Source: Mrakia gelida (Eukaryota > Basidiomycota > Tremellomycetes > Cystofilobasidiales > Mrakiaceae). Taken from it: a stretch of DNA of 64,000 nt. Under the pieces are notes generated by a model. It did no database searches and was not told the origin of the DNA. It worked only from the letters and a program-made list of their open reading frames with translations. Location of the stretch: NCBI GenBank assembly GCA_024345305.1, contig BRON01000019.1, positions 186,001 through 250,000 on the forward strand. Direction: 5' to 3'. The position numbers and the translations under genes were made by a program. Shown piece by piece: positions 17,045 to 63,917 of the stretch (the stretch's first letter is position 1; each line of letters opens with the position of its first letter).

Positions 17045-18941
17045 ATGCTCTTCAATCTTCCCTCTACATCGACAATTGCAGCCGATCTTTGGTCGGTAGA
17101 GTTAGAAAGCTCGCTGTTTCATTTTCGTCAAGGAAGAACACCGCAAGCTCTGTGGGCGTATGAGCGAGTGAGGGTTCCTTTCCTCCTCTCTCTCTTCCCT
17201 CTCGTATCCTCACTGAGATCTAATCTTCCGCTTCTACAGTTCATCGGCCTACGCGGAGAGGAGTACCGTCTCTTCGCTCACGCTGAAATCGTGTATGCGA
17301 GGCTGGAGACTCTCGAGCTCATCGCAGCAGGCTGGACAGAAGCTCGAGATGCCGACGGCCGAAGCGTTTTCCATCGGGAAGGATTGACTTGTGAGCTGAG
17401 TGACTTCTACAGCGGCAAAGTAAGTCCTCGCCTTGAACGATCCCGACTTGTGTGTGTACGACGGTCTCGCTGCAGGACAGGCGGGTGCCAGAAAGACTCG
17501 GAATCTGGTCGCCAATGTTGTCGACGCTCCTCTCCTGACCTTTCTCCGCACTCTTCTTCTCTGCTCTATCTACACACAGATCACCGATCGACTCTTCCTC
17601 CTCTAAGATCGACTACCCAACTACCTCCAAACCGCTATCCTCTCCCCTGCCGCCGACTCGCATATCGTACAGCCCTCCTTCGCCGATCAGCTGTCGTCCC
17701 TCGCCCTCCTCCTCTCCACCTCCATCCCGGCCTCGAACCTCATCGATTCACTTCCCGCGGAGATCATCTCGCTCATAGGTCATCACTTCGTCAACGATGA
17801 GACACGGATCAGGCCGTACTCCAGCAACAAGAAGACGGAGCCAGGAGATCGACCCTTCGACTTGATCGCGGTCTCGAGGAGATGGAGGGACGTCTTCCTG
17901 AACGATGCTCGGATCTGGGGAGATCTGAGCTTCGTGGAGGGTCAAGATGCTCTCAAGAAGCTGGATTGCTTTCTCGAGAAGGGAGCGCTGAAGAGTTTGT
18001 TTGGGAAGGTCGAGGAGGAAGAGACGATGAGGATCATCGTCGAGTCGTTGAAGGGGAAGGGTTCGTCGCTGAAGCGACTGGGTATGGAGGTCCCTTCGGA
18101 TATGGACTTCGGGAACATCTGGCAGATGTTCAGTCCCGACTTCGTTCTCAGCGACCTCAGGCTCACGACCGGAACCTCGCTCTTGCTCGACGCGTCGCTC
18201 CCTCCCATCCACCTCAACATCTCCTCCCTCACCAACATCTACCTCGACGGACTCAACTTCCCTTCCTCCCTCGCTCCCTTCCTCCGGCGGCTTCCCAACC
18301 TCCAATCCCTCCAATTCTACGCCTGCGTGATCCATTTGAAGGAGGTTGAATCGTCGAAACCGAACCCAACCATCATCGACCTTCCCAACCTCACTTCCCT
18401 TCGGTTCAACGAGGACACCAACATGGACGACGAGGATGGAAGTGTCGTGTTCCTTCTTCCCAAGCTCCAGCACTTCGAAGTCGGAAGCGTCAACATCCCA
18501 ACCCTCCCCATTCTTTTCCCTCCCTCCCCTCATCCTCCCAACGTCGGTCACCTCGTCACGCTTTGGATGCCCTACGACTATCAACTTCACGAGCCTTCCT
18601 TCATCCAGCAACTCCGCCAGCTTCGCTCGCTCGTCAACCTAGGACTCGGAGACTCAAACGTAACGGACGCGACGCTCAAAGCTCTCGCTTGGACGAAGGA
18701 GGAGGACGGACCAGGAGGCTGCTGTCCCCTGCTGGAGAGTCTCGACTTCTTTGACAACTCCTCGTTCACTCAGGACGCTCTTTTCGAGCTCGTCAAGACG
18801 AGAGTGACCGGGTCGGAGGAAGGCAAGGAGGTCAGCGTCATTCGCGAGCTCTACCACTCGAGCTGCGATGGAATCGACTTCGATCCTGAGCGATTTGAAT
18901 GGATGAGGAGTCATATAGATCATTACTCCCCCACTCCTTGA
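17045..18941 (+). pseudogene. F-box/TPR-like/LRR gene A1, interrupted by one TAA
   Basis: The copy follows the family A layout. Exon 1 (17045-17167) encodes a TPR-like helix pair ending LFHFRQGRTPQALWAYER. Exon 2 (17240-17419) continues it (RLFAHAEIVYARLETLE). Exon 3 (17580-18941) holds the F-box (SLPAEIISLIGHHFV ... VSRRWRDVFLNDARIWG) and leucine-rich repeats such as LPNLTSLRF and LRQLRSLVNLGLG. Ignoring the lesion, the product would be about 554 residues. Exon 3 starts in phase but meets TAA at 17604-17606, nine codons in; downstream the frame is open for 445 codons. No alternative acceptor rescues the frame. A shorter product starting at Met 17862 would lack the F-box start. Intact relatives suggest an SCF substrate adaptor. 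Confidence 0.75.
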
Positions 18942-19138
18942 CACTGCGATGCATCGCACGAAGGAATGGTCGGTGAGTCCAGTCTCTCTCGTCGTCGCGT
19001 TTTCCTTTTCGCCGTCCAACCTTAAGCTAACTCCTCTCGCGTTTTATCTTCCGTCCACAGATACCAATTTCCCTGAGTGTTTGATCTCCCCACCTCAACT
19101 TCTCCTCCCATCCTCCCAAGTCGCTCCCTCACCTTCGC

Positions 19139-19169
<31 letters not shown>

Positions 19170-21183: not shown

Positions 21184-22441
21184 TCAAAGTACCGTCACTT
21201 TGACTCCGCTCTCGAGCAGCCTGTGACTCAGATCGAACCATCTGTTGAGAAAGATCGACAGTAATCCTAGTCAAAACAGCTGTCCGATCACGGCGGGTAG
21301 TAGAAGAAAAGCTCACGGCTTCCAAACCGTCGTCGAGTTCGGCGTCGTCTCGATCCAGATCACCTCCTCGAGTCCAGGGAAGAGCTCCTTGGAGAGGTAG
21401 GCGACGAGAGCGTTCCCCTCCGCCTTGGGTGGTTCGAAGAAGCCGTTCGTGGGAAATGGGAGGATGATGATCCGCTTGACGGAGGGAACGGGCATGGAGG
21501 GAAGGGCGAAAGGGTCGGAGGACGTAGTGTTGGAAAGAGAGATGACCAGCTCTTCCACGGTAGAACCGCCGAAAACCCTTTGATGATCACTGCAGAGGTT
21601 GAGCATGTTTGAGGTGGGTTTGATAGCTCGAAGCTGCTCGAGCGTAGCGTTGACTCTGACAAACTCGAGAACTTCCGGACCCCAGCGGATCTCGTCGAGG
21701 ATCTCGGTCAACGACGTGAGCGAAATCCTGGAGAGTGAGGGAAGCGACCAGACTCCTTCAAGAGCGTCCTCAAGTGGTTCTCCGTAGCTCTGCTCGTTCC
21801 AATGTCTTGTTCCGATGACGAGGTCTTGGAGGTGAGGGAGAGTGACCGTTCGCGCGCTGTGGGAAGCTGGACTTTTCGAAGGGACGACCCGACCGACTTG
21901 GACCAGCTGGAGGGATGTTAGGGAGGCCGAAACTGATTCGAGGAGGGTGAGGACGGATATGATGTTCTCGATGCCGACTCCTAAGCCTGATAGGACACGA
22001 ATTGGGCGACGAAGGTAGGAGAGGGAAACGTTGAGAGCCGCAGAGCAGGGTTTGTCTCGTTGATCCCATTCTTCCTCGAGGAGTTTGGCCAGAGAAAGTC
22101 CTTGAGCTGAAGTCTTGATCCGGACCGTTGACCAGAAGAAGGACGACGCGACGGTCTGGGGAGAGAAACAGAGGAAGGGTCAGCACAAGAGCGAGAGGAT
22201 CCCAGGTCTCGCTCGACTCGCTCAAAGACGGGCTCACTCTCATCTCCCTCGACACCAGTCTCAGCGAGGCGACATCCTTCAATCTCTCCTTCTCCAACTC
22301 GGGGGTGAATAGCTCGTCCCTTCACTCTAAGATCTCCGGAAGGTAGGACGACGAATCGAGGGCGAGGACGGAGGCGGGAGGTTTGACGTTTCGAAGGATT
22401 TCTCCCCAGATCTCGGGCGGGAACCGTTGAGCGGCGGACAT
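21184..22441 (-). pseudogene. F-box gene C, interrupted by one TGA
   Basis: Three exons (22238-22441, 21317-22155, 21184-21241) join in phase. The N-terminus MSAAQRFPPEIWGEILRNV is a clear F-box start, followed after about 60 residues by LKDVASLRLVSREMR, the F-box end. The rest has degenerate leucine-rich repeats (SLTSLQLVQVGRV, LPHLQDLVIG, LEEVIWIET) and ends VKVTVL. Ignoring the lesion it would be 366 residues. The lesion is TGA at 22322-22324 (codon 40), inside the F-box; reading through, the frame is open to the end. An Arg CGA codon changed to TGA would explain it. It belongs to neither family A nor B. Confidence 0.75.
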
Positions 22442-22992
22442 GGTGAGGGAGATGTAGGTGAGGAGACTGAGTTCTAGTGAAAGAGGTGGAGAGGGAGAGT
22501 CAGATTGCACGCGAACGAGGCGAGAAGAGGGAACGAAAGGACCAACGACGAACGAGCTTGAGCGAGAAGGAGGTGAGAAGAGATGCTGGAGTTCGATTCT
22601 TGAGGATGAGGCGTCGACTTGGAAAGATCTGGAGTACAGAGAATGTGTCCGAGTCAGCTATAGAGAGGAGATGTCAAAAAGAGGGAGGGATATCGAGAAC
22701 GTACGGTCTTGAAGAAAGGAAGGAAGAGAAGGTTGAGCTCGACGGAGTTGACCTTCAGCGGCTTCGTTGCCGTCGGTTTTGAGTCTTTAAGAGGAGGTTT
22801 CGAGGAATTGGATCGACGGCGAGTACGATGAGGTAATCCGAGGAGTAGCTGGAAGTCTTGGGGTAAGAAAAGCTGCTGAGAGCAAGAGGGAGTTGGCGGA
22901 CACCTTGAACTTGATTTCGTCGAGCTCACCTTCTCCTTCCTCAAGCGTCGATCCCCCCTTCCTTCGTCCTTTTCCCAACCCCTCAACCCAAG
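22442..22992. other. Divergent intergenic region between F-box genes C and D
   Basis: About 550 bp between head-to-head F-box-type genes. Open frames on either strand are acidic or Ser-rich shadows. A minus-strand 5' leader exon of gene C is possible but not shown. Confidence 0.45.
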
Positions 22993-24726
22993 ATGTCCTT
23001 CTATGCTCTCCCCAACGACATCCTCTCCGGATCCTTCCTCCCCATCCTCCAAGCTCGCCTCGAAAGAGCGGATTTCCACCACCTCTCGCTCGTCTCTCGC
23101 GAGCTCTCCTCCCTCCTTCGACCTCTCCTCTTCCACGCCCTCACCTTCACAGCAGGAGAGCGTCTCGCAGTCGAACGAGTCGCAGGCCTCGCCTCCTCTC
23201 CTCACCTCACTCCTCTCGTCCAGATCATTCGATTCAAGGCGATCAAGCATGGAGAGAAGGAGGAGAAGCAACCGAGCTGGAACATCTGGACCTCCCTCCT
23301 CCCTCTCCTCTCCCATCTCACCTCTCTCCACGTCGTCGAAACCATCGGAAAGGTCCCTCCTCACAACTTTTGGAGCCTTCTAGAGGCTCTGACTACTGTC
23401 AAACCAAAGGCCGTCGAGATTACGGACGGATTCATGGACGAGGACGGACCTCCTCCCTCCTTCTTCCTCCTCTCAGGACTGGAGGAGATTCGATTCGATG
23501 GAGACGAGGCAGACTCCAGTATCACCTTCCGTCGCAAGGTCTCAACCAAGGTCAAGGATCTCGTTCTCGGAAACAGCTCCACGCTCAGGAAGCTCGACAT
23601 CCAGTCTCAGGCTCTCCACTTGAACCAGGCGAGTCGCTGCTCGTTTCACGTCTTCTTTCCACTCCCCCCTCGTCGCTGACCCTTCCTTTCCCACTCCTCC
23701 TTCTTCTCCTGTAGATTCTCGTCCCAGACTCCGACAACGCTCCTACATTCCCATCCCTTCTCTCCCTCACCATCGCCGCCAACGTCCACGGAGTCGAGTA
23801 CCCCCAGTGCGACGAATCACTCAACTCCCTCGCGACGTGGTTTCATGTCCTTCTCCAGCACACTCCCAAGCTCGAATCCTTCTCCATCTTCCCAGGAGCC
23901 ACCTCCTCCAGATCGTACAACGGCGAGAGCTTAAGGAATCCCAATAACCCCTTCTTCGGCGTAATCAGCTCGACGACCAGTTTACCGGTCTGTCTCTATT
24001 CCATCGCCTCCCCTCTCACCGAAACGACCTTTCTCCCTCTCCTCTTCGACAAGAATGCAGTGGGATACCTTCCCTCGCTCAGAAGGCTCGAGATCGCTCG
24101 ACCTCCTCCTCGAGACTCGTCCTTCATGTACGAGTGGGTTCCGTTCGGAAGGAAGGACGCGACGGAGGTGTTCGACGCGTTGAAGGGTTTGAAAGGGCTG
24201 AGGAAGTTGAGCGTTACGTTGGGTGAGATGGGAGAGGATCTCATCGAAGCAATCTCTGCTGTTGGAGCTGAAGTTGGGTTGGAGAGTCTTGAGATCGAGC
24301 TTCGAGTTGGGAAGGGCGAGGAGAACGCGTCGGGAGACGGGTTGCTTTGGGCGGACGTTTTGGTGAGCTCGTGCTTTCTTCCCTCTCGCTCTTCCTCTCG
24401 AAAGTCAACACTGACTCTCCACCGTCTTTTCCGTCTCTCAGGATCCCCTCATCTCTGCCCTCTTACCTCTCGGTCCAACCCTTCGAGCCCTCGTGGTCGC
24501 CGACAATCGAATCACTACCGAGCGAACGTCCCTCTTCCATTCCAACGACTCGAACCTCATCACCTCCCTCGACTTCCTTCCCACCATCCTCCTCTTCGCC
24601 AAACATCTCCTCAAGCTCACCTCAGTTCGATGGATCACGCGCGACGGAGCGAAGGACGACGAGATCGTGAGGGATCAGCTTTGGGTCGCGACTGTCGAGG
24701 GAGGGTGGATGAGGATGGTTGGTTGA
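22993..24726 (+). CDS. F-box-type/LRR protein D
   Basis: Three exons (22993-23628, 23715-24362, 24442-24726) give 522 residues without a lesion. The start MSFYALPNDILSGSF is followed by FHHLSLVSRELSSLLRPLLF, an F-box-like pair of helices, then a long region of irregular leucine-rich repeats (LTPLVQIIRF, LSHLTSLHVVE, LPSLRRLEIARP). The first intron starts with GC rather than GT (CAG|GCGAGT) and is needed to keep the frame, since the nearest GT shifts it. It is probably a substrate adaptor of an SCF ubiquitin ligase, inferred only from architecture. It is one of three F-box-type genes in the window whose frame is fully open. Confidence 0.75.
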
Positions 24727-25095
24727 GGGCGGAAGACGTTGCCGATTCGTTGCTTTCTTACTGTTCACGATCTCCATGCCGTTTCTGCCTTGATTTTCGT
24801 TGGCCTCGACTCGTTTCGAGGGAAGAGCGAAGAGGAGGATTCGATCGAGCCTCGTCTGTTCGAGCTGCCGAGCCTCTGTGCGCGAGGAAATATATCCGAC
24901 GATCTTTTTGAGCTGCAGGAGTGAAGGGGGAGTATCTTGGCCCAGAGAGTCCATAGAGCTAGAGCAGGCTGATCGTCCCATGGTCGTCAGGGGTCAACGC
25001 GAGACGAAGGAGAGCGAGAGCTCAGCTCTCCTCGTTCTCGAAGTTGGCACCCAACTCCTTCGACCTCCTTCCATCCTTCTTCTTCGATCATTCTC

Positions 25096-27053
25096 ATGAA
25101 CCCATTGATCCCATCATCATCCTGGACGATAGATCTTCAACGTGGGATTGATCTTCTACGAGCTGGAGAGTTTGACGAGGGTCTGCAGTATCTCGACGAG
25201 GTGAGCTCGCTCTTTTCCCCTTCCCTTCCTTCCCTCGAACGCTGTCCTTCTAACGTCTCTCTGTTCCTCGGTTTCCTGATGCCCAGGCCACTCGCATAGG
25301 CTGGCTCGAGGCCGGTCTCTTTGCTTCTCGCAAGGAGGTTCTTTCAAAGCTTCGAAACATCCAGCTCGCGGGAAGGAACGTCGTGGAGGAGGAGGAGGAG
25401 GACGACCTCGACTTGGATTCGGAAGACGAAGAATACGACTTCAACGACTACGTGAGTTTTTTTGAACTCGTTGATGACCCTGGAGCTCTTTGGTTGACCG
25501 CTCGCCTCTCCCCTCCCCTCCAATCCTTCCTCCTCGCCAAATCGTCCCAATCCCTCCCATCTACCAACCTTCAACTAGCCCACGCTCAAACCCATCTCAA
25601 CACGTTCCTCCCTCTTCGGGACCTCATCAACAGACTCCCAGAAGAGATCCTCACCCTCATCATTCGACTCGTCGTTCGCGAGCAGGATTTCCTCCACTTC
25701 ACCGACCGTCAGGCTTTCCAGGAGGTCGCTCTCGTCTCGCATCGCTGGCGACAGATAGCTCTTCTCGATCCAATACTCAACGGGGACATCACCATCAAAT
25801 CCATCGACGGAGCCAAGAAGCTGAGACAGCTCCAGGATACTCCGAGGAGGGTACGCGTCAAGGGAGAGGCACAAGGCCAACGAGCGCATCGACGGACTCA
25901 TCTTGCCCGCTCTCACAGGGAACTCCGAATCCCTTACCTACTTGGAGGTCCGACTCGGACTGCAGGAAGGACTGGAGGACGTCTGGAACCTCTCGAAATC
26001 ACCGCTGGTCCTCGTCGAACTGGACCTTAGCAACAGCAACCTCAACCCCCGTCGGATCCCTCTCCCTCCTACCCCCAACCATATCTCCTCCCTCCGTCAC
26101 CTCAGTTTATGGCACTTTTACCCCACGGACGATCGGTCCCTTCTTCCTCTCCTCCAATACCTCCCTTGCCTCCAAACCCTCGTCTTGTTCAACTCCAATC
26201 TCAACTTCACCCCTCCGGCCGGATCTACCTCCTCCTCCCCATCCATCGTCTCCCTCCCTCATCTCAACCATCTCGAGTTCGTAGGCTGCTACGACATCGA
26301 AATCCTCGACTCCGTCATCTTCCTCCTTCCTCGCCTAAAGGACTTCTGGGCCGCCTCCTCGGACGTCCCCTTTGTTGAAACTTCCGGTCCTGGGAAGTTA
26401 GGTTGTGCAAGTTATTGTATCAACTTAAGCTATGAAGATGAAAGGTCTTTAGGTCGAAAAGAAAGAGCGACGTGTAACTACGTGGAACTACCTGGAAGTG
26501 AAACGTGGAGGCGATGGAGAGTATTAAGCAAATATGAACAGTAATCTCGACGCCGTAATCAACATATTCAACACCCTTCCACCCCTTCATCTTCCCTCCC
26601 TCACCTCACCCTCCCAACGTCGCCTGCCTCGAAGAGCTCCACCTTCGCCACAACTGGATGCTTGAGGACGAGGCCGTGTTCATCACTCAGCTACGACAGC
26701 TTCGATCCCTCAAGGACCTCGGAGTCGGATCAGCTGGACTCTCGGACGCGACGCTCGACGCGTTGGCGTGGCCTGAGAAGGTGGAGGAGGGAGGGAAGGT
26801 GGGGATCTGTCCTGGGTTGCGAGAACTTACCTTCTTCGGGAACGAGGCTGCGACAGGGGAGGCTTGCGTGCGGCTGGTAGCTTCTAGGGAGAAGGGGTGC
26901 GAGAGGGGGCAGTGCGCGAAACTTCGTCGTTTTGAGACTGGTGACATTGGAGGTGAGGAGGGAATGGATGAGGCTTCTTTTGATTGGCTTTTTGACCACG
27001 TAGACATATTCCTCCTAGGCAGATTCGGATTATCTAATCAAGTTGGCGGTTGA
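25096..27053 (+). pseudogene. F-box/TPR-like/LRR gene A2, frameshifted and interrupted
   Basis: Exon 1 (25096-25200) encodes the TPR-like start, ending EFDEGLQYLDE. The next exon starts at 25287 (GLFASRKEVLSKLR). The usual second intron has its GTGAG at 25452 but no usable acceptor; the frame stays open straight into exon 3, so it is probably retained. The F-box is clear (LPEEILTLIIRLVV ... VSHRWRQIALLDPIL). Near 25860-25875 the frame shifts: coding similarity continues in another frame (ANERIDGLILPALTGNSESL). At about 26374 a 169-bp A/T-richer block interrupts the repeats, and a further shift follows near 26600. The C-terminal repeats (FITQLRQLRSLKDLGVGSAG) are recognisable to 27053. This is the most decayed member of the cluster. 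Confidence 0.8.
26374..26542. mobile_element. 169-bp A/T-richer insertion inside F-box gene A2
   Basis: Homology to other family A copies breaks after DVPF and resumes near 26543. The intervening block is clearly richer in A and T than anything around it and encodes nothing family-like. I saw no long terminal repeats or clear target duplication, so calling it a mobile element is an inference; it could also be filler DNA from break repair. Confidence 0.35.
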
Positions 27054-27244: not shown

Positions 27245-27317
27245 TGGAGGCTGTAAGGATTGAACTCACGACCTTACACATGCTAAGCGTATGCTCTACC
27301 AACTGAGCTAAACCCCC
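27245..27317 (-). tRNA. tRNA-Ala (AGC)
   Basis: The minus strand folds as a 73-nt tRNA: acceptor GGGGGTT pairing with AGCCTCC, D-arm TAGCTCAGTTGGTAGAGCA, anticodon loop TTAGCAT with anticodon AGC, and T-arm GTGAGTTCAATCC. It has the A and B box sequences for RNA polymerase III and no intron. The CCA end is not encoded. Confidence 0.95.
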
Positions 27318-32763: not shown

Positions 32764-33804
32764 ATGACCACCCCTCTTCTTGCAATCTCTCCCTCCCTAC
32801 CGAGCTCAAGAAGGAAATCCTCCTCTTCTGCGACCCTTCCTCCCTCGCAGCCGCTTGCCTCGCTTCGACGGCCTTCCTCGAACTCGCAGGGCCTGTCCTC
32901 TACAACGACGTCACCATAAACGGACTCGAGTGTCTCAGCAGACTCATCGGACACAAGGTCTACAACCTCTCTTCCTTTTTCTCGCACTGTTTCTCCCCGT
33001 CCCGACTGACTTTATCTCCCCTCCCTCGCTTCAGGGACCTCCACGCGCTCGCCTCCCTCCTCCTCTCTCTTCCTTCCTCTCCCTCACTCGTTGCAAAAGA
33101 CTCACCTTCGTCGGAATCCCAGAGGATCGAGCATGGAGTCCCAACACCTCTGAATACGGTCTTCCATCCTCCAACCTCCTTCGCATCCCAAATTTCAACG
33201 TCGAGGATGGAAAGTGGGATTCGGAGATCGAACCCCCTCGCCTCTCCTTCCTCAACCTCTTCAACCTCACTCATGCCCACCTCTCAGTCCCTCTTCCAGT
33301 CGACCGCGCCTGGCTCCCTCTTCCATCCTTCGAATGGACCCGACTCAGGTCCCTCACCTTCGACGGATGCTGGTCTGAGGATCCTCTCTTCGACGCCCCT
33401 CTCTTCTCGCCTCAGGACGACGAGAACGCTCCCCTCGAAGTGGAGTTCAGCTTCTCGAGGTACACGTCCGAAGAGATCCAGGAGTGGATCTCTTTCCTCG
33501 TTCGGCAGATGAGGTGGAACTCCCCGCAGGCGAGGACGAGGGAGATGAGTTGGTTGAGAGGTCGCTCGCAGATTTCCGGGGTGGTGGTTCGAGTGGGGAC
33601 TGAGGAGCAGGCTCGCGCATGTTGGGAGAAAGCGGAGAAGCTTTGGGAGGAGTACTATGTACCTAGGGAGGAGGTCGAGAGGATCAAACGAAACTTTCGC
33701 ATCGTGAGTTCGCTCCAGCTCGACGCGTCCCTCGGCGTGAAGAGTTTTCGCTGATCATTTTTCGCACATACCTCCTTCCATCTCTCTCCTAGGAAAGTCG
33801 ATAA
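32764..33804 (+). pseudogene. Short F-box-type gene B1, start codon out of frame
   Basis: The conserved block LPTELKKEILLFCDPSSLAA ... LELAGPVLY in exon 1 (to 32957) matches B2 and B4. Exon 2 (33035-33703) has KRLTFVGIPEDRAW and WTRLRSLTFDGC, and exon 3 (33793-33804) ends FRI-ESR. The only ATG in the expected place, 32764, is in another frame; the conserved frame has no ATG between a stop at 32649 and the F-box. One base gained or lost between about 32766 and 32795 would explain this. The upstream promoter block is also present in a second copy near 34471. Confidence 0.7.
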
Positions 33805-34029: not shown

Positions 34030-34300
34030 GGAGATCGTCGACGCGTCGTCTTTGGTTCGTCGCTTCTTCCTTCGCGCCTTCGAGACGAGATTTCTGCTTC
34101 GGAAGCTGACTCCTCCAACTCTTCGCTCTAACAGGCACGTGTATATATCTTTCGATGAAATCGCTTCGACGAGCTTTCGGTCGGAAGGGGCGGGCTGGCA
34201 AAGAGAGAACTAGAGAGTGGACGATCTCGTTTGTTGTCTTCGTTCTGCTTCGATAATCGATAGACTGCGCTGTTCGTGTTGGTCTTCTTGGAACCTTCGT
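34030..34300 (+). repeat. Conserved non-coding block downstream of B1 (copy 1)
   Basis: This 270-bp block matches 37785-38060 (downstream of B2) at roughly three quarters of positions by eye, including shared GAAGCTGACTCCTC and CTCTAACAGG strings (a branch site and intron acceptor) and GTGGACGATCTCGT. It suggests B1 and B2 were duplicated together with a spliced 3' trailer. Confidence 0.7.
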
Positions 34301-34470
34301 CTCTATGGCTCGATGAGACATGAGCTCGAGAGCAGATTCGCTCATCGGAGGGCAGAGCTTGCGGAAGTTGGTCGCGTCGAGGGCGAAGCTGGAGGAGTTC
34401 TGGAACGGCGAGGTGGAGCCGCCTCAGTTCAAGAGTTGATGGAGCTGGGAGTGAGAAGATGAGATTCCTG

Positions 34471-34804: not shown

Positions 34805-36497
34805 CTAATCCGACTCGTAGAATTCCTCCACTGGTACCCTCGCCTTTGCGTACGCAACAAAAAGCCATTCCGCTCTCCCGCTCCTCGACTCCTTCATCAC
34901 CTCCACCGCCTCCTCCGTTATCGCAGCACACTTCTTCACATCCAACGTCGTCAACGATGAGCAAAGCCCTTCCCCTTCCCGTAGGGTGAGAGCCTCGATC
35001 AGAGCGTCGGAGAAGCGAGCTCCTCCGACCTCGAGCCGTTTGAGCGAGGGGAGGAACGCGAGGTGGGAGATGAAGGTGGCCTCGTCCGGAGCGTCCTTGT
35101 TCGATAGTAGGAGGGTTTCGAGGTGGTAGGGTCCGACGACGGTGGACAAGGGATGGAAGAGGAAGGGGATGTAGGAGCTTGGACTTCGTTGGAGGTCGAG
35201 GAAGCGAAGGTTGGGGAGGTCGAAGCAAGTTGCCTCGATTCCGCGACGGCCGCCGCCCAGGCTGAAGGTACGGAGGTATGGGAGAGAAACGATGTGGATG
35301 GAGTTATTGCTGGAAAGGATAGGAATGGGGGTGAAGATGCGGAAGGCGGCTGTTTGGACGTGGAGGCGTTGAAGGTTGGGAGGAAGGTTCGTGGTGTCGA
35401 GGAGGAAGTCGCTGCTACGAACGACGAGAGATCGGAGGTTGGGAAGAGGTTGAGAGGGTAGTTCGAAAGCTCCAAGGCCGATTGAGGTGACGGTGAGGTG
35501 GGAGAGAGGAGGAGCAAGGTCGCTTGCGTTGAACCCGAGGATGGGCCAGACCTCCTTGCAGGCTTCGCTGCTCGATATCACCAGAGACTCCAAGCTACTG
35601 CCTTTCCCGGCCAGACTAGCGAGAACCGGTGAAGTCCCGATGTCCGGTCCCACGCCTCTGAGACGGCGGTTCTCCCTCAGTTGGACGACGAGGTGGGTTG
35701 CCCGTCCTTTGGCGGAGAGGGTATCGACCTTCTTTGCTCCGCCTTAGGACCTATCCGCCATTTCCCCCATAACTTGCAATCCCCAACAAAGATCGACCTC
35801 CACCTTCGCGAGACTGCTGCAAGAGGGAAGGCGGCGCTGGAGTCGTTGACTGATTCGACGACGAAACGACCGATGAGGGCGAGGATTTCGTTGGGGAGGT
35901 GATGGTCGACGAGGTTGAGGTGGGAGAGACGATGTTGAAGGAGGGATTCAGACTTGACGACGAGGAGATCGAGCTTGGCATCCGAGCTGACTGGGAGGAG
36001 GGAGAGGATGCTGGTTTGGAGGGATTCCGGGAGGTGAGAGAGGAGGTCGAAGATAAGTCGTTCGGACTTCTACACGGAGATAAAACAAACCGAGTCAGTT
36101 CGGTGCTGCTTAAATGTGATAGCTAGCTCTCTACACCAGCGACTGAGAGGAAGAGGTCGATTCATCATGAACTCAGAGCGAAAAGAAGACTGACCTCTTC
36201 GTCGACGACGGCCGGTGAAACTCCTCGAAGGAAGGCCAGCTCGAGGGCCTGAGCTTGTCGAGAACGACCGCTTTGGGAGCGAGAACGGCGATCCATTGGT
36301 CTCCAAGCTGTAGGCTCTGTTCGGAAGAATTTTAGAGACAGAGAAGGAGTCAGCGAGAAGGAGGGAACGAAGAGGAAGGCAAAGAAGGAAATCAAGCTCA
36401 CGTCGTCGAACTGCCTCAAAGCCTCGTCAAACGCTCCCAATCGGAGGAAATTGATCCCTTTCCTATACGACGCAGCCCAAGGTAGTTCTGGTAGCAT
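34805..36497 (-). pseudogene. F-box/TPR-like/LRR gene A3, two frameshifts
   Basis: Exon 1 (36402-36497) encodes a TPR-like helix pair ending GAFDEALRQFDD. Exon 2 (36195-36316) is 122 nt, not a multiple of three as in intact A5; similarity switches frame between VVLDKLR and ALELAFLRG, so one base has been lost near 36240. Exon 3 (34805-36069) contains the F-box (HLPNEILALIGRFVV ... VSRRWRSIFVGDCKLWG). Soon after, near 35730, a second frameshift leads to a stop, while the repeats (LRSLVVRSSDF, LPNLRFLDLQRS) continue in another frame to the natural end EEFYESD at 34805. Without lesions it would be a 500-residue SCF adaptor-like protein. Confidence 0.8.
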
Positions 36498-38060: not shown

Positions 38061-38259
38061 ATCTCTGTGGCTCGCTTGCCCAGTAGCTCGAGAGCAGATT
38101 TTCCCGTCCCTACTCTCGCAGTTTCTCGTGATCGACCGACACAGCACCTGCAGGATCTCGATCAAGCGAAGAGCTCGATTCGAGTTGCCTCCTCCCTCCG
38201 ACCACTTCGACCTCAGCTCCCTCCCTTCCTCTCTTTCCTTCTCGCTCGGTCGCCCGGAT

Positions 38260-44599: not shown

Positions 44600-46339
44600 A
44601 TGATTCCTCCTCTCCCCTGGGTCCAAGCCTATCGTCAAGGTTTCAAGCATCTTCGCTCTCTCGAGTACGAGATGGCTCTTAGGTCGTTCGACGAGGCGAG
44701 TCTTTTCTCCCTTCTCTCGCTTCTCGGTCGCTCGTCCTTTCTGACCGCTCTCCCTTTCGCTTCTTCTTCGATCCATCAGTCGGTCGAGCTTGGAGGCTCT
44801 CAAGTCAAGATCCTTCCTTCGAGGTCAGAGGTTCTCCAAAGTTTGCGGAGTCTGGAGCTGTCGTTTTTGGTGGAGGAGGAGGGAGTGAAGTCGTCGACGT
44901 CAATGAGCGGCGTCGAGGAGGTGGTGAGTCGACCCGTCTCTCTCTCTCTCTCTCTCTTTCGTCCGGATGCACGACCTTGAATCGAATCGCTCATTCTTCC
45001 CACGTTTCCTTCTGGTCCCCAGAGGTCTTCTCGTCTTTTCAGCATCCTGGCTCGCCTCCCTCCTCCCATTCGAACGCTCCTCCTCAATCCGTCAGCTTCA
45101 ACCTCCTTCAAGGACATCTCCTCCCTCGCTCATCAAGAGAGCCTCGAATCCCTCCTCCCAGATCTTAGGACCCATTACCCTCGGAACCTTATCGACTACG
45201 TCCCCGCCGAGGTGCTCACCCTCATCGGTCGACAAGTCTGCCACGATCGAGGCATCGACGCGTCGTTCCAACTCGCCGGCGTCTCTCGACGATGGAGAGC
45301 GATCTTCATCGCCGATGCCGAGCTCTGGGGAAGGATAGAGCTCTTTCGAAAGGATGGCTCGAGGAAGCTGGAGTGTCTGCTGGAGAAGGGACCGCCGAGG
45401 AGTGTTCGAGTCGAGAGGCACGTCGAAGAGCTCGTCGTCGACCTCGTGTTCGAGGCCTTGAAGTGGAACGTCGCATCGCTCACTTCGCTGGACATCCATC
45501 TCACGACCGAGCACGGATTGGAGGACGTATGGATGTTGTCATCGGCACCGCTTGCTCTCACCGAGCTCAAAGTCAACCGCACCTCGAGGTCGGATCCTCC
45601 TCAAATCCCTCTCCCTCTTCACTTCGGTCACATCTCCTCCCTTCTTCGTCTCACCCTCACCTTCTTCAACCCCACCGTCGACTCCTCCCTCTATCCTCTC
45701 CTCCAGCACATTCCACACCTCCAAACCCTCAAACTCCAATTCTGCAACCTCTCCTTCGACTCGCCAACCGCCTCCCCTTCCTCTCCCACCATCATCTCCC
45801 TCCCAAACCTCCTTCGAATCGAATCGGAGGGCTCCACCATCCAATTCGCAGACTCCACAGTCTTCCTCCTACCCCGTCTCGAGGCTTCGGTCCACTGGGA
45901 AGCCGCTCCCTTCGACTTCAACGTCGTCCTCTTCCCTCCCGCTCCCCACCCTCCCAACATCGCCCATCTCGAGGAGCTCGTCGTCGTCTTTGGGTGGGAG
46001 TTAGAGCCGGACCTGGCGAGTATCCTCGGACGCCTCAAGGAGATGCGGTCGCTCGTCAAACTCAACATCAGCTCGCTTTTCCTCGCGGACAACGCCCTCA
46101 TCGACGCGCTCGTTTGGAAAGGCGACGAGGACGCCAACTTCTGCCCTTTCCTTCGCGAGTTGGACTTCGGGGTAGCTTCGGGGGAGGACTTGATTCGGTT
46201 GGTGAAGTCGCGATGGGAAGGCTGGAAGAGGGGGGAGTGCGAGAAGCTAGTCGAGTTGCAGGGAGATGAGACGAGCGAGGGATTGAGGGAGCAGGATTTG
46301 TTGCTGTTGAGGACGATGGTGCAGGTTACCTCTGGTTAA
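44600..46339 (+). CDS. F-box/TPR-like/LRR protein A5 (intact copy)
   Basis: Exons 44600-44695, 44780-44923 and 45023-46339 give 518 residues with no lesion. In order: a TPR-like helix pair (MIPPLPWVQAYRQGF ... YEMALRSFDE), a second short exon (GGSQVKILPSRSEVLQSLRS), the F-box at about residues 140-200 (DYVPAEVLTLIGRQVC ... GVSRRWRAIFIADAELWG), then eight or so leucine-rich repeats (LHFGHISSLLRLTLTFFNP, IPHLQTLKLQFC, LPNLLRIES). The order resembles Dia2/Pof3 SCF adaptors: repeats bind the substrate and the F-box binds Skp1. The first intron has a GC donor (GAG|GCGAGT) where sister copies have GTGAG, so splicing efficiency may be reduced. This is the best reference for the whole family. Confidence 0.82.
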
Positions 46340-48896: not shown

Positions 48897-49926
48897 TCAA
48901 GCGACGACGACAACGACGAACCGAAGCAAACTCTCCCTCCTCTCCATCTCCCCTCCGCTCAAACCGACCCAAACCCACCACACCCGAAGGGACTGCAGGA
49001 TCTTCTCCCTCTGTTCCTCACCCCTCAATCTCACCTCGACCTCCTTTAACGCAGAGCAGCAAAGCAAAGCCTCCCTCCTCTCGTTCCACCCGCCCGGCGC
49101 TTCCCAAGGTCTTCCTCCCAGCAACTGAACCAGCAACTGATCCCTCATCCAACTCGCACTCCTCTCGTCCGACAGATCGAAGCGAACTGTAAGAGAGAAA
49201 GGGGGGAGGGAAGAAGGGAGAGCGGCCGTCCAGCGAGGTGAGAGAACGGGACAGCTCCGTTGAAGGAAAGGGATCGAAGACGCGTCCATTTCACTTCCCT
49301 GAAGTTCATGGTTGCGTAACCTCCCTTCTGGATGGGAGAAGGGTTGATACCGCGAGTGATACAGTGAACGGGATCGAAGAGGTTGAGGAGTCTCGTCCAA
49401 GGGGAGGCCACGTTGGGGAGGAGGGAGGGGAGGAGGAGACGAAGCGAGTCGAGGGGGATCTGACTATGGTTCGGAGGTTGAAAGATGGAGGTGAGATCCT
49501 CGAGGACACCAGTGAAGGTGAAGGAGTGAACCTGAGTGAGAGAGAGGTACGAGGAGATCTGGTTGAGCTCTCGTTCCTTCGAGGAGATGGACATGGAGGG
49601 AGGAAAGAGGTGAGCTCAACGTCAGCTTCTTCTCGTTCGTTCTGCATACGCTCCCCTCTCCTTCCAACTTCCATACAAGAGGAAAGGTCACTTACAGAAC
49701 GAAAGACGAGAAGTCTATCGAGATGCTTAAAACCTTGGATCTCGACATCTCGGTAGAGAAGAGGGGAGGAGAGTTGGAGGAAGCCGAAGGAGGCGAGGGA
49801 GGTCCTGGTCAAGGTTGGACGGTCGCAGAAGCGAAGGATCTCACGTTTGAGTTCGATGGGGAGCAGAGGAAGAGAGAGAGGGCAGGAAGAGGGTGGGATA
49901 AGGTCCATATCGACGAGGTTGGGCAA
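48897..49926 (-). pseudogene. Short F-box-type gene B4, probable frameshift
   Basis: Exon 1 (49696-49926) contains LLPIELKREILRFCDRPTLT ... LQLSSPLLYRDV, the B-type motif. Exon 2 starts at 49576 (ELNQISSYLSLTQVHSFTF) and runs through LLNLFDPVHC and WTRLRSLSFNGA. The similarity then continues in a different frame as VRFDLSDERSASWMRDQL to the end at 48897. A putative intron between them has no branch site and does not restore phase, so a one-base change near the homopolymer at about 49200 is the simpler reading. A Met six codons downstream (49908) is an equally good start. Confidence 0.6.
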
Positions 49927-49976
49927 ATAGGGAAGTCGTGGTTCCTCGCCAAAAGGGGGGGAAGGGAAAGGAAAGG

Positions 49977-50757
49977 GAAAGAGGTCGAGCTCATCACGAA
50001 GCTACCTCCAACGACTTCGACCTCCTTCCCCCCTCCCTTCTTTTCGATATCACTTCAACATGATCCCATCTCCAACCTGGCTGGCTCCCTTTCGAGCTGG
50101 CATGGACGCTCTACGAGCTCGTTCTTTCGACGCAGCGTTCTCCTCCTTCGACGAAGTTCGTTCCATCTTCTCTCCTCCTCCCCTTCTCTTCTTCCCTCGT
50201 CCCCACCTCGTTGGACCTTCCCTGCTGGCATTCAATTGAGCCTATACTTATCGCACCGTCCTTACCGATCCCTCCCCATCAGGCCGTCAACATCGGAGGC
50301 TCGCAACTCGCCGTCTTCGCTTCTCGGGCAGAGGTCCTTGCTCGACTCCGAGTTCTCGAAGGCGCCGTCGTCGACCATTCCTTCTCGGACAGCAGAAGAT
50401 CTTCGAGTTCAGACGATGTGAGTACGGCGCGCTCAGATACCGTCTAGTCGTGCCATCGCTCGAGTGAACCTATGGAGAGTCTCAGGACGAGCAAACTCTT
50501 GCTCTTGCTTCCCTCGCTGACCTCTCCTCTCCCGCTCGCTCTGTCTCTCCCCTTCACAGGACGCTCCCCACCTCTTCCAAACCCTCTCGAAACTCCCCGA
50601 CTACCTCCAAACCGCCATCATCTCCACTTCGCCTCCGACCTCCACCTCCCTCGAAGGCCCTCTCCTCCAAGCTCAAGATCTCGTCGCCTCTCTTCTCCAA
50701 GCCCGTCCCTTCATCGACTTCCTCCCAGCCGAGCTCCTCACCTCCATCGGTCGATAC
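49977..50757 (+). repeat. Inverted segmental duplication, left arm
   Basis: This 781-bp segment is nearly identical, in inverted orientation, to 63220-64000. It covers the A6 promoter, exons 1 and 2, their introns and the first 198 nt of exon 3. Positions map with a constant sum of 113977, so there is no indel; the few substitutions I saw include 50155, 50285 and one near 50654. Identity stops abruptly inside the F-box. Confidence 0.95.
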
Positions 50758-51927
50758 CTCGTCTTCGAAGACCGCAGCTATCGCTGCTCAGACCCTGCGT
50801 TCAAGCTCGTAGCGGTCTCGAGGAGGTGGAGGTCAATCTTCCTCCAGGATCCTCTCCTCTGGGGATTCCTGGCGCTCGACGGCGGTGGGACGGTCGACGA
50901 CCTTCGCAAGGCGGAGATCTTCATCGAGAGAGGACCTCTTCGTGGCGTGAGGATCTTCTCTAGCTGGGGTGTAGACGATCCGAGCCTCGTTGCAGGCTTG
51001 TACAGACTCTTGCAGGGGAGGACGTCAAGCCTCGAGGAGCTCGTCGCGTCGATTCGATACCATTCGGACTGGGCCGCCCTCTGGTCTCTCGTTCACCACC
51101 CATCTCTCCCCTCATCTTCCCGAAAACTACACATGTCCCTCAACTTCAAGATGTCCCGCCACCCTTTCCCTCTACACCTTACCGAAACCTCTTTCCCCTC
51201 CCTCACCTCCCTCTCCCTCAGCAATATCGTCCGTCGCGACCCTTCCTCCGTCCTCTTCCTCTTCGAACGCCTTCCAAACCTCGCCTCCTTCTCCATGGCA
51301 AACTGCCACAACCTCCTCCTCCTCCTCCCAACTGTCGACGAAACCGATAAACTCGAGCTACCGTTGCTGGCCTCCCTCGTCGTCGCCGGGAGTGAATCGG
51401 ACTTCCTCCCTCTTGAACCCTTCCTCCTCATCGCGCCCCTCCTCACCTCCCTCTCAATCAGAAATGCCGACCCTTTCATCTAGGCCCTCCTCTATCCTTC
51501 GTCTCTCCCACCACCCAACTACCCAAGCCTTCAGGTACTACACATCGAGCAGGAGGACGACACCATCCACGGCCCAACCCTTCTCGAACACCTCCTCCGA
51601 CTCCCCACCCTCCATTCTCTCCGCCTCAGATGGTTCGGCGAGCTCACCAACCTCATCCTACCGGCTCTTACCATCCGCACGGAGGAGGAAGGTGGTTCCG
51701 AAGACGTCCTCCTCCCCGACCTCGCGTCGCTCGACCTCGCCCACAGCGGACCCGTCTCGGACGAGGAGACCAAAGCCATGATCAGGTCGAGGAAGGAAGA
51801 AGGGATAAAAGAAGGTGGGCGGTGCTGTGTGGTGAGGGAGTTCATCGTCGGGGAGGAGGAGGTTGAGAAGGAGATGGCGAAGTGGCTGAAGGAGAACGTG
51901 GATCATTTTTCTGAGCACGAGTGGTGA
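50060..51927 (+). pseudogene. F-box/TPR-like/LRR gene A6, interrupted by one TAG
   Basis: Exons 50060-50155, 50283-50417 and 50560-51927 join in phase; without lesions the protein is 532 residues. The TPR-like part (ALRARSFDAAFSSFDE-AVN), F-box (DFLPAELLTSIGRYLV ... VSRRWRSIFLQDPLLWG) and repeats (FPSLTSLSLSN, LPNLASFSMANC) are all well preserved. TAG at 51481-51483 (codon 385) splits the repeat domain; beyond it the frame is open to the natural end KENVDHFSEHEW. The sister copy A8 has Ser at the aligned position. Its 5' half belongs to the inverted duplication, while the 3' half is clearly diverged from A8. Confidence 0.78.
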
Positions 51928-56304: not shown

Positions 56305-59202
56305 CTACCACATCCCATTCCCACCCCCCAACGCCGTCTCCTCCTCCTCCTCCAGTCTCTCCCTCCTCTCCTCCTCGCTCTCCTTCTCATGATCCCCCAA
56401 CCCAACGAACCCCTCCCCCAAATGCTCCCTCAACCACTTCTCATCCTCCTCCCCAACTACAGCGTGATCCTTGAATCCAAGATCCAGCTTCTCGATGCTC
56501 GCGCCTCCTGTTGCCCTCGACGCGACGAGGGAGACGAGGTGAGCTCCTTGAACGGTGTGGGCGTTCTACGGTAAAGTAAAGGTCTCTAGGTGGGGTTGTG
56601 GTGGGTAGCTCTATCGAGGTTCGTGGGAGGAACGACGCTGGCGAGTGCTCGTTGAGGTTTCAGCTCTTGGAGGCTTTGGGGTGGGCTGGGAGAAGGAAGG
56701 GAGGTCGGTGGAGAAGGGAAAACGAGAACTACTACTAGCGACTTGAGAACTACGCGAGGGAGAATTAGAACTACTACTGGGCGACTTGACGGCGAGACTG
56801 GTTCTGGAGAAGGGAAGATGAGAAAGGGAGACGAGAAGGGAAGCTGAGAAGTTGACCAATTCTGGGGTGAAAGTTGATGAATAGCAAGAAGGTCAAAACT
56901 AGCCCACTCTTTATACTAAATATGATCCGCAGTCCGAAGCACCGAGAAGAGGAACGAGGCTGGAGGGAGTAGCTAGCGAAAGGGAGGAAGGACGGTGAGA
57001 CACGACGCGAGACCATCAGCGGTCACAGCAAAGCCAAAAAGGGGTATAAGCTATAAAACGGAAGAGGGAGAGAAGTCGAGAACCGAGAAGAATATGTACT
57101 AAGCAGGAGAGTCGAGACAGAAGGGAGGGCCGAGAAGGGAAAGGGGAACGTGAGTGAGACGCGTCGCGAGGAGAAGGTTTCGGGCAAAGGTATCTAGAGA
57201 ACGAGAAGAGTCGGCGAAGGGAAGCAGAGAACTAAATATAAACATAAGGGCGAGGCCCAGAACCTATAGAAGTGGGGTCTCTAACCGAGACAGGAGAAAA
57301 GGGGAAGAGACGCGTCGAGAAGAAAGCAAAACGAAAGAACGAACGAACCGAGAAGAACTCCTCACTTCCTCTCCAAACCCCCACAACGGACGCTTCGAGG
57401 ATTTCGAGGGTGGTGAGGAGCGGGCAGAGCTGGGGGGAGGATGAGGGGGAGGAGGAAGGGGGTTGAACCAAAGCGTGGAGGAGAGCGTCCAGCTCGCCGA
57501 GGTGTTGGCTGAGTCCGAGGAAGGTGAGCGAACCGAGATGGGGGAGAGCGTCCTCGATGAAGTTTGAGAGGTTGAATCCCGACGTGAGTCGACTGAGGCA
57601 GAGTCGTTTGAGGTGGGGAGTGTTTCCGTTCGAGTTGAGCGAGGGAGGGAAGAGGAAGGGAGTGTAGTCCTTGGCCGAGAGGTCGAGTTCCTCCAGTTTT
57701 GGAAGGACGAAGCCGTGAGAGTAGGAGGGAGGGTCTTCTCTAGGGAGGTACTCTCGTCCTTGAATGACGAGGGTCCGAAGGTTTGGAATGGTGACTGGTT
57801 GGCCGTGGGGTCGGGGTGCTCCTGCTGAGGAAGGTCGAGGGTTGGGAGGAGGAGCGAGGGTCAAGTTCCTGCAGTCGACGAGGAAGAGGTTTTGGAGATT
57901 TGGGAGGTAGGCGAGGAGAGGGTAGAGAGAGAGAGGGAGACCCCCGTTCTCCCGGGTATAGCGTTCCAGGTGGAGGGTAACGAGGGAGGAGACGTGGTCG
58001 AGGGTAGGGGGGAGGGTGTACTGCTGGCGGACGAAGTCCGCGGGAGACCACGCGACCGAGAGGGTGTGAAGACGAGTTGCTGGGGAGTCCCAGATGTTCC
58101 AGACGTCCTCCAGCGAGGTCTTGTAGGCACTGGGAATGACGAGCCGATCCAACATAGCTCCCTTCCCTCGAAGATAACGGACGATCAAGTTGACGAAGTT
58201 GTCTCCTGGAGTGTCAAGTTTCCGCCCAGCCGGTTCGGGGAGCTCAAGATCCCAAAGATCTCCCCTCGAGGTTTAGAAATCGAGTTCCTCCTCCCACCGA
58301 TCGTGACCTCGAAGCCGAAGTTGTCCCCAGATGCGTTTGTCGTCGATAAGGATGCTTCTCCATCGATGGGAGACCGTCGAAAGCGCGATGGCTGGGCTTG
58401 AGGAAGAGCTTGCCGCGACGAGATGGGCGATGGAGGAGATGGTCTCAACTGGGAGATAGTCGACGAGGTTCCGACCGTGGGATCGAAGGTTTCCTCGAAG
58501 GCTCTCGACGTAGGCGAGGGGAGGAGTGCCAGAGGAAGGAGAGTCGTCGAGGTGAAGGAGGAGGCTTTGGGCTTGAGGTGGGAGTCGATGAAGGCTCTCG
58601 AAGAGGAAAGCAGAGTTCTGGTCGTGAAGAGAGAGCAACAACGAGTGACGTGTGAGTTTCAAGGTCCAAAGAAAGCTCGGAACAAGGTGGAAGGAACGAG
58701 AAGAGATCGAGGACGTTGGGACGCGAACCGACCTCCTTCCTCCCCTCCCTCTCTCCCTTCTTCCCTCTCTCCTCGGCCCCCTCCAGCCTTTTCGTGTGAC
58801 TCGATGAGTAGATGGTAGCCTCTGACTCGCTCCGACAGGTTGTTTTTGAACTGAGACTCACCGTTTCGAGATCGAAGTCCACTTCAGGCGCTCCTTCCTT
58901 CAATGAGTGGTCGAACCACTTGGATCCTTCGTATCCTCCTGAGCACTTCCTTCCGAGGAGCGAGGACAGCAACACGATCTCCAGCCATTCTCACCGCCTT
59001 TCAAGCATCGGACACAGAAGAAAAGGACGCGATCAGCAAGAGAGAAGCGAGAGAAGGCAAAAGACAGATGAAGGGAAGGAGAAGAAGGAGTGGAGCTCAC
59101 CTCGTCGAACGAGCTCAACGCAGCATCGTAGTCCGGCTTCTGAAGCTTGAGAGCTGTGATTCCACGCTCGAAGGGCTCGTACCAAGCGAGGGGAGGGATC
59201 AT
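56305..59202 (-). pseudogene. F-box/TPR-like/LRR gene A7, frameshift, TAA and a long extra intron
   Basis: Exon 1 (59101-59202) gives the TPR-like start ending DYDAALSSFDE. Exon 2 (58862-58997) is 136 nt, not a multiple of three, so the frame shifts near its end (before EVDFDLET). Exon 3 (57366-58617) has the F-box (DYLPVETISSIAHLVAA ... VSHRWRSILIDDKRIWG) and meets TAA at 58273-58275, where A4 has Phe; afterwards the frame is open again through repeats such as LPNLRTLVIQG. Homology to the family C-terminus breaks at about 57366 and resumes at 56546 (HLVSLVASRATGG ... EKWLREHL), in phase across a GTGAGG donor and AAG acceptor. That implies an intron or insertion of about 820 bp absent from other copies. 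Confidence 0.7.
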
Positions 59203-61648: not shown

Positions 61649-62056
61649 GAGGAGGAGGAGGAGCCTATGGGAGTTATACGAGCTTGCGGTTGGGTCGGCT
61701 GAGAAAGGGAGACGGAGACGAGATGCGCGCTGGAGGGGAGAGACGAGAATAAGAAAGACACAGCGACGCGTCGAAGTTGACGCTCGTGAGTCGACCGTCT
61801 GAGAAGCGATTTTTATTTGAGTCATGACTGCGAGCGCTGAGGAGCCAGCATAACGATTGGTCGAGAGTGCGTAAAGTGAGATCGGTAAGATAAACGAAGA
61901 GAACTAGAGAGAGCACAAGACGAGCAGAACAACGACGCGACGCGAGGAAAACGGGGTGGACGGTGAATCTACGCGCTACAAACTACTAGATGGGGGTATT
62001 CATCTTCAGCCCTCGGCTCTACAACGTACCAGCGCGAGCGAAGCCCCGGATCTCCT
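61649..62056. other. Intergenic region between convergent gene and A8
   Basis: About 400 bp between converging genes, with a GACGCGTC near 61765. No gene seen. Confidence 0.5.
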
Positions 62057-63917
62057 TCAGTAATCGTTTCGGAAAATCGCGACGTTCTCCTTCAACCACC
62101 GTCCCATCTCTGGATCCAGATCCTCGTCCCCAACCGCAAACTCCCTCACCACACAGCACCGCCCGCCTTCTTTCCTCCCTTCTTCCTTCCTCGACCTGAT
62201 CATGGCTTTGGTCTCCGCGTCCCAGACGGGTCCGCTGTGGGCGAGGTCGAGCGATTCGAGCTTCGGGAAGAGGACCTCGGACCCTCCCTCCTCCTCCCGG
62301 ACGGTGAGAGCCTCGAAGATATCGTAGGATAAGGCCTCGAACCACCTGAGGGTCAAGGATCGGAGGGTGGGAGGAAGTTGTCGGAGGCGGAGAAGAAGGG
62401 TAGCGTTGTGGCTGTCCTCGAATCGCTCCAAGATAAGGAGCAGGCTTTCGAGGTTTGGGGGGTTGATGAGCGGGAGAGAGGTGAGGAAGAGGGAGGAGAG
62501 GTGATCGTCGGCATCAGTGATGGAGAGGGAGGTGAGGAGGGGCGCGACGAGGACGTAGGGTTGGAGGATGACGCTTGAGTCGCTGCTGTCGACGGCGAGG
62601 GAGAGGAGGGAAGGAAGGTTGAGTGTGCTGGTTCCGTCGATGCTTGGGAGGATGAGAAACAGGTTGTAGCAGTTGGACATTTTAAAGGTGGTGAGGTTTG
62701 GGACCAGGTTGAAGAGAGGAAGGAGGGAAGAAGGGTGGCGGAGGGGGATGGAGGCGAGGGAGAGCGACGTGAGGGAGGGGAAACTTGTGCTGGGAAGGGA
62801 TAGATGGCGTAGACGACGATGGTCGGCATGGAAGCGGTAGAGAGGAGGGTGAGGGAGAGCCTTTGAAGTCGGGAGATAGTGCCTGGGTTGCTGACGAGAG
62901 ACCAAAGGACGTCCCAATCCAAGGGGTTTCGAACCGACGCGTCGAACGCTTCGAGACCTGAGGTCCGTCCTCTCAACGCCTCGTACAAGCCTCCCAGATC
63001 CTCGTCGTCTCGCTTCCAGCAATGGATCAGAACACTTCGTAGCGGTCCCTTCGCGGCGAACTCCTCCACCTTGCGAAGGCTCCCAGCCGTCCCTTCGACA
63101 AGCCAGAGATGTCCCCAAAGGATTCGATCCTGGAGGAAAACCGACCTCCACCTCTTCGAGACCGCCACGAGCTTGAAAGTTGGATCCGAATCCTGAGAGT
63201 CGTATATCGAAAGAACGACGTATCGACCGATGGAGGTGAGGAGCTCGGCTGGGAGGAAGTCGATGAAGGGACGGGCTTGGAGAAGAGAGGCGACGAGATC
63301 TTGAGCTTGGAGGAGAGGGCCATCGAGGGAGGTGGAGGTCGGAGGCGAAGTGGAGATGATGGCGGTTTGGAGGTAGTCGGGGAGTTTCGAGAGGGTTTGG
63401 AAGAGGTGGGGAGCGTCCTGTGAAGGGGAGAGACAGAGCGAGCGGGAGAGGAGAGGTCAGCGAGGGAAGCAAGAGCAAGAGTTTGCTCGTCCTGAGACTC
63501 TCCATAGGTTCACTCGAGCGATGGCACGACTAGACGGTATCTGAGCGCGCCGTACTCACATCGTCTGAACTCGAAGATCTTCTGCTGTCCGAGAAGGAAT
63601 GGTCGACGACGGCGCCTTCGAGAACTCGGAGTCGAGCAAGGACCTCTGCCCGAGAAGCGAAGACGGCGAGTTGCGAGCCTCCGATGTTGACAGCCTGATG
63701 GGGAGGGATCGGTAAGGACGGTGCGATAAGTATAGGCTCAATTGAATGCCAGCAGGGAAGGTCCAACGAGGTGGGGACGAGGGAAGAAGAGAAGGGGAGG
63801 AGGAGAGAAGATGGAACGAACCTCGTCGAAGGAGGAGAACGCTGCGTCGAAAGAACGAGCTCGTAGAGCGTCCATGCCAGCTCGAAAGGGAGCCAGCCAG
63901 GTTGGAGATGGGATCAT
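62057..63917 (-). pseudogene. F-box/TPR-like/LRR gene A8, one frameshift
   Basis: Exon 1 (63822-63917) and exon 2 (63560 up to about 63694) match A6 almost exactly. Exon 3 (62057-63417) is 1361 nt, one or two bases away from a multiple of three. The F-box and first repeats (VSKRWRSVFLQDRILWGHLW) lie in one frame up to about 62815; from RHLSLPSTSFPSLTSLSLAS onward the repeats continue in another frame to the natural end KENVAIFRNDY. Near-perfect identity to A6 stops inside the F-box, so the repeat domain is much more divergent than the rest. Without the lesion it would be about 530 residues. Confidence 0.78.

Follow-up and report, generated by a model that had tools for sequence, protein, structure and literature searches.

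Young, independent lesions in about half the copies of a diverging F-box/LRR gene family of the yeast Mrakia gelida

The stretch of DNA analyzed here (the window) comprises 64,000 nucleotides of contig BRON01000019.1 of the cold-loving basidiomycete yeast Mrakia gelida (Tremellomycetes, Cystofilobasidiales, Mrakiaceae; assembly GCA_024345305.1; C19:186001-250000) and harbors a dense group of F-box genes. The original prediction counted fourteen of them: eight of a family designated A, four of a family B, and two genes, C and D, of other families. The eight family-A genes and the family-B genes are borne out at the predicted places. One exon each of C and D was scanned against Pfam without an F-box match; neither of the two offered a homologue for lesion comparison. 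A search of the whole genome (34.86 Mb, 25 contigs) with the family-A gene A45 gave 49 matches, merged by hand into at least 39 copies; this is a lower bound. Contig C19, to which the window belongs, carries 27 copies, C15 six, C7 three, and C8, C1 and C6 one each. On C19 the family extends over approximately 12-565 kb, of which the window region is a dense part, so the 47-kb region originally delimited does not form a unit.

Gene models were built with a purpose-written spliced aligner, which takes paralogues as queries and allows frameshifts and stops at a price. Family-A genes have three exons parted by two introns: a short exon 1 (about 32 codons), which encodes a part similar to tetratricopeptide repeats (TPR); exon 2 of about 48 codons; and a long exon 3 for the F-box and leucine-rich repeats (LRR). 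Both intron places recur in most copies. The intron 1 donor is GT in 35 and GC in one of the 36 copies scored, the exception being A45 (intron 44696-44779); as the aligner admits GT or GC donors and AG acceptors only, the kept splice dinucleotides are partly a product of its construction.

Both features that mark FBXL-type adaptors of SCF (Skp1-Cul1-F-box) ubiquitin ligases, i.e., an F-box domain and LRRs following it, were found in family A. The F-box-like domain PF12937 was detected at E ≤ 0.01 in nine of the 13 open members and the F-box region can be aligned across the 39 copies, in keeping with the expanded family of SCF-adaptor type that had been predicted; an SCF function is inferred. 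A profile of the 13 open members matches FBXL2, TIR1 and FBXL5, and weakly FBXL17. The AlphaFold model of A45 exon 3, computed from a 13-row alignment (predicted local distance difference test, pLDDT, 81; predicted template modeling score, pTM, 0.77), matches the solved structures of FBXL2, FBXL17 and SKP2 first, FBXL2 and FBXL17 being the best, at 11-18% identity, a likeness of fold that implies no orthology. Among six N-terminal parts scanned, a TPR domain above the cut-off was found only in L044, the copy on C1 (C1:2107500-2112000; TPR_2, 33.4 bits, cut-off 27); L019, L034 and L038 gave weak TPR matches below it, and A50 and A45 gave none. L044, whose closest relative in the tree is L045 on C6, is also the family member that a Sistotremastrum protein matches best (25% over 495 columns). 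Because of these two matches L044 looks like the founder type, and it is likely to be a conserved TPR-F-box-LRR gene of that kind. Other database relatives are distant: one protein with 34% identity to L031 and nine with 22-31% to A45, five of which are named and come from mushrooms and their kin.

A lesion was considered robust if it was needed, at approximately one position, by at least four of the five best paralogues used as queries. Robust lesions are present in 21 of the 39 family-A copies (16 of 27 on C19, three of six on C15, one of three on C7, and one of the three others), with 18, 15, six and no copies carrying zero, one, two, and three or more, respectively. They total 27, namely 11 stops and 16 frameshifts. 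Under the further condition that the score loss on forbidding lesions has a median of 15 or more, L036 and L045 drop out and 19 of 39 copies remain; the median loss is at least 20 in 16 of the 21. Three of the 21 are marginal: the stop of L023 lies near the C end and that of L029 close to intron 2, and the score loss of L025 is 15. Among the 18 copies without a robust lesion, L043 needs a lesion with all five queries, but at differing places; a lesion is needed by three queries in L011, by two of five in A1, by one in six other copies, and by none in nine. The window holds robust lesions in six of its eight family-A copies (A25, A35, A38, A50, A57, and A62), versus 15 of 31 outside it, and A45 is its sole family-A copy free of lesions with all five queries. 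In family B, tested with the single query B32, two of four genes (B36 and B49) carry solid lesions. The eleven lesioned genes of the original prediction are therefore an overcount: eight of fourteen are solid, and A1 and B32 are equivocal. Nor is the lost start of A25 confirmed: the TTG at the usual start (25105), where other copies have ATG, is preceded by an in-frame ATG 9 nt upstream (25096).

The lesions are young in comparison with the genes that carry them. New stops accrue at approximately 43-49 per copy per substitution per site, which, with 11 stops in 39 copies, gives a mean neutral age of about 0.006 substitutions per site. By contrast, the median end branch of the family-A tree amounts to 0.76 changes per column, and the nine closest pairs differ by 0.38-1.12 synonymous substitutions per site (dS); the genes must thus have been coding for nearly all their history. 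Clustering of the lesions by clade or along the gene was rejected: on the gene tree they require 13 changes, against a mean of 13.2 after shuffling (281 of 500 shuffles gave a count as low), and along the gene, where they range from exon 1 to the vicinity of the C end, the 25 of 27 that can be placed on A45 are random as well (Kolmogorov-Smirnov p = 0.23). The number of lesions per copy is Poisson-like (p = 0.60, variance/mean 0.77).

Table. F-box genes and the duplicated tract of the window (positions from its first nucleotide)
Feature	Position	Strand	Description
A1	17045..18941	+	family-A F-box/LRR; diverged exon 1; in-frame TAA 17604, which can fall inside intron 2; equivocal
D	21316..22500	-	other-family F-box gene of the original prediction; F-box unconfirmed
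C	22993..24911	+	other-family F-box gene of the original prediction; F-box unconfirmed
A25	25096..27053	+	family A; frameshift ~25860-25900, stop 26556; ~209-nt insert or intron 26333-26541
B32	32793..33754	+	family-B F-box; intron 32958-33034; no in-frame ATG seen, equivocal; upstream exon possible
A35	34808..36497	-	family A; frameshifts ~36250 and ~35740; head-to-head with B36
B36	36646..37596	+	family-B F-box (PF00646 20.6 bits, cut-off 20.5); stop 37425, homology on to 37596
A38	38260..40329	+	family A; in-frame TGA 39274, open elsewhere
B43	42550..43641	+	diverged family-B-like; no lesion seen, divergence makes the test weak
A45	44600..46339	+	family A; exons 44600-44695, 44780-44923, 45023-46339; no lesion with 5/5 queries
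B49	48917..49908	-	family-B F-box; frameshift ~49246, also in its copy beyond the window
Near-identical tract	49150..50740		~99-100% identity with inverted copy at 63237-64000, continuing to ~64827 past the window
A50	50060..51927	+	family A; in-frame TAG 51481; head-to-head with B49
A57	57235..59202	-	family A; in-frame TAA 58275
A62	62060..63917	-	family A; frameshift within ~62805-62886; head-to-head with B gene at ~64.1-65.1 kb, past the window end
Second tract copy	63237..64000		part inside the window

Duplication in the family appears to have proceeded partly by segments. B49-A50 and A62-B65, an inverted pair approximately 12.5 kb away, have about 1.6 kb in common with 99-100% identity (100-column windows), covering part of B, the shared promoter, exon 1 and exon 2 of A, and the start of the F-box; over the 1.1 kb at 49620-50735 they differ by four substitutions and no indel. 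The tract stops sharply within the A F-box near 50740, and the LRR parts of A50 and A62 are only 54% identical in protein. Patchy identity is also seen between L018 and L027 (97% in a single 120-column window, dropping to about 60% thereafter), a second sign of segmental exchange. An upstream B-type gene stands head-to-head with eight of the 39 family-A copies, with L010 as a weak ninth; the count is a lower bound, as the upstream sequence is short at some loci. The ratio of nonsynonymous to synonymous differences per site (pN/pS) is higher in the LRR than in the TPR part in the four closest pairs: A50/A62 (0.79 versus 0.00, the recent tract), L015/L027 (0.64 versus 0.19), L018/L027 (0.69 versus 0.18), and L015/L018 (0.63 versus 0.28).

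Several other elements adjoin these genes. Rfam and tRNA scans yielded a single tRNA-Ala (AGC), located downstream of A25 on the minus strand (27245-27317). Two stretches of about 300 bp with 75% identity lie beyond the 3' end of A35 (34037-34338) and beyond B36 (37796-38100). DNA-level relatives of gene C (84% and 79%; 24132-24726, L041:497-1098, and L021:3633-4159) are situated beside other family-A copies on C19, which indicates that its family is dispersed on this contig too. The open gene at 41045-42370, divergent from B43, encodes a protein judged BTB-like by eye; it has no Pfam match at E 0.1 and is possibly a Cul3-type adaptor among Cul1-type ones.

As a control, six CCT genes were modeled with the same aligner, CCT paralogues serving as cross-queries; 18 of the 36 models were listed (12 cross-paralogue and six self-query). 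None of the 12 listed cross-paralogue models contains a lesion, where the family-A rate would predict 3.7 over 2,645 codons (P(0) = 0.024), and one of the six self-query models (C8) has a frameshift at a point where the query retained an intron tail. The CCT-theta gene of the genome is fitted by its Mrakia frigida orthologue without a lesion over 528 codons and eight introns, with 519 of 528 residues identical (455 of 528 in Phaffia rhodozyma). Among sugar transporters, the top model is lesion-free in eight of eight genes, and four of the 16 lower-ranked models listed have one frameshift; with chains of only 1,292 codons, this control carries little weight.

These controls bear on the view that the lesions are sequencing or assembly errors. 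Single-base indels are a common type of error, and 16 of the 27 robust lesions are frameshifts; the 11 in-frame stops, however, would demand an estimated 0.6% of wrong bases, and the 1.1-kb tract copies differ by those four substitutions without any indel. As the CCT genes are clean and B49 shares its frameshift with the copy beyond the window, error is unlikely, in agreement with the original prediction, and is given a small probability. Smaller still is the chance that the lesions leave the genes working, being removed by splicing, bypassed by readthrough or frameshifting, or giving truncated products that function. Readthrough and programmed frameshifting, both raised in the original prediction, find no support. 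A GT-AG stretch of 38-87 nt can remove some lesions (e.g., in A38, A57, and A62) at the expense of matched residues, yet the score loss of at least 20 in most lesioned copies speaks against such rescue, as do the occurrence of all three stop codons, the lack of an evident sequence context shared by the lesion stops, and the spread of lesions over almost the whole length of the gene. Removal of the lesions by introns was rejected; that of A1 is freely removable, and those of L011, L036 and L045 cheaply. Mutation of repeats from C to T, as in repeat-induced point mutation (RIP), was rejected and is exceedingly improbable as the origin of the stops. Four of the 11 robust stops (five if L039 is counted) stand opposite Arg, Gln or Trp residues of some relatives, but RIP is not known to produce frameshifts, and its indices are unaltered: TpA/ApT is 0.52, 0.53 and 0.58, and observed/expected CpG 0.96, 0.97 and 0.95, in the pooled family loci, the CCT loci and the left 16 kb, respectively.

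The youth of the lesions leaves two possibilities: either most nulls are unfixed, or the whole family was released from selection very recently. Steady birth-and-death, in which the broken copies would be pseudogenes that became fixed as the family turns over, has the duplications and mosaic tracts in its favor, as well as the broadly similar behavior of plant F-box families (PMC3030570). If death is irreversible, rates are constant, the frameshift rate is scaled from that of stops, and older copies are detected, six second lesions among 21 broken copies correspond to a mean dead age of about 0.0025 and a working life of about 0.002 substitutions per site. Such a working life cannot be reconciled with lineages of at least 0.2 in dS, a discrepancy of a hundredfold or more; in addition, none of the 39 copies has three or more robust lesions, although the search may miss heavily decayed copies. 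Of the recent pseudogenisation by birth-and-death originally proposed, the recency stands, while turnover of fixed pseudogenes is insufficient and is held to be improbable. The main rival is a family-wide release from selection about 0.006 substitutions per site ago, after which all copies, the open ones included, would decay neutrally. That the classes with zero, one and two lesions fit one Poisson distribution with a single rate, and that lesions do not cluster by clade, is what this account leads one to expect, but it requires about 39 diverged genes to have lost their use simultaneously; it merits serious consideration as a minority view.

The best fit is offered by an alternative already mentioned in the original prediction, allelic nulls in the population: family A would be an expendable, diversifying repertoire of SCF adaptors with young, probably segregating nulls, a reading whose chance of being correct we put at about even. 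Family A would then be a lineage-specific, fast-evolving set of adaptors, in which the N-terminal TPR-like hairpin precedes an F-box for docking on Skp1, and target choice falls to an LRR horseshoe; its probable origin is a TPR-F-box-LRR gene of the conserved Dia2/Pof3 kind, represented by L044. That about half of the copies are freshly broken suggests that single copies are expendable, and every one of them might be dispensable by itself. Long under coding constraint, with the LRR parts diverging fastest, the copies would now include young nulls in about half of the set in this strain. Working and broken versions of each copy may coexist in nature, so that any one genome of the species would display many fresh, independent lesions. 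Multiplication would take place partly as head-to-head A-B pairs, and the 5' segments (promoter, TPR, F-box) would be exchanged by duplication or gene conversion.

Several observations weigh against this repertoire of expendable adaptors. Segregation is deduced from one genome only, the CCT control amounts to a modest 2,645 codons, and A45 itself has no F-box match in Pfam. The contrast in pN/pS between the LRR and TPR parts is weaker, absent or reversed in more distant pairs, so weak constraint rather than adaptation is possible. Word-based searches of 5.8 billion proteins, which detect only proteins with short words in common, found no close homologue of the 13 open members, whereas M. frigida CCT-theta is present there; very fast turnover would also fit this absence.

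A more far-reaching proposal, tentative as a whole, is that the F-box/LRR arsenal acts as a recognition system (self/non-self, or selfish or mobile elements) kept by balancing or frequency-dependent selection, with each strain expressing a different half, young null alleles turning over by recombination, and segmental conversion maintaining promoter, TPR and F-box alongside differing LRR parts. If this were true, family A would be a fungal counterpart of the nematode F-box and the plant F-box or NLR repertoires. If the nulls segregate, the family would provide a simple model of how large F-box repertoires are kept, namely through strains that differ in which copies work, instead of through gains and losses that become fixed. 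In any case, it is a compact and countable yeast example in which the usual account by birth-and-death is open to calculation and fails to fit.

TPR-F-box-LRR proteins are known from yeasts. Pof3 of Schizosaccharomyces pombe has this architecture, and family A, whose N-terminal part is TPR-like, follows the order of Dia2 and Pof3, with a TPR match above the cut-off in L044. Dia2 was not among the structures listed by VIA-align, which has no bearing on kinship. Dia2 of Saccharomyces cerevisiae has its F-box at residues 211-247 and 15 LRRs (PMC8695382); the window copies, unlike Dia2, are many and diverged, and their TPR-like part is short and weak. No account of this family was found in the literature on basidiomycete, Mrakia or Tremellomycetes F-box genes, as far as a survey leaving subscription journals mostly uncovered extends; in Microbotryum, F-box genes are few (PMC4469406). 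The KSL and KSS proteins of Caenorhabditis are likewise fast-evolving, clustered F-box proteins. As points of difference from family A, for which no toxin was sought, some of the KSS act as antidotes to linked toxins, and no TPR-like part of KSL or KSS is described in the available section of that report (PMC12680543). A close parallel is the plant F-box superfamily, described as being under 'genomic drift', with at least 370 members broken by frameshifts or stops in Arabidopsis lyrata (PMC3030570); there, large species-limited groups include many broken copies, called, as in family A, with non-self references. Taking frameshifts or stops required by at least two non-self references as the mark of a drifting family, 21 of 39 copies exhibit it here with at least four of five. 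Drifting F-box families are thus known as a kind; family A adds a yeast lineage, and it stands out in that over half of its copies are broken, all of them freshly and with one or two robust lesions each.

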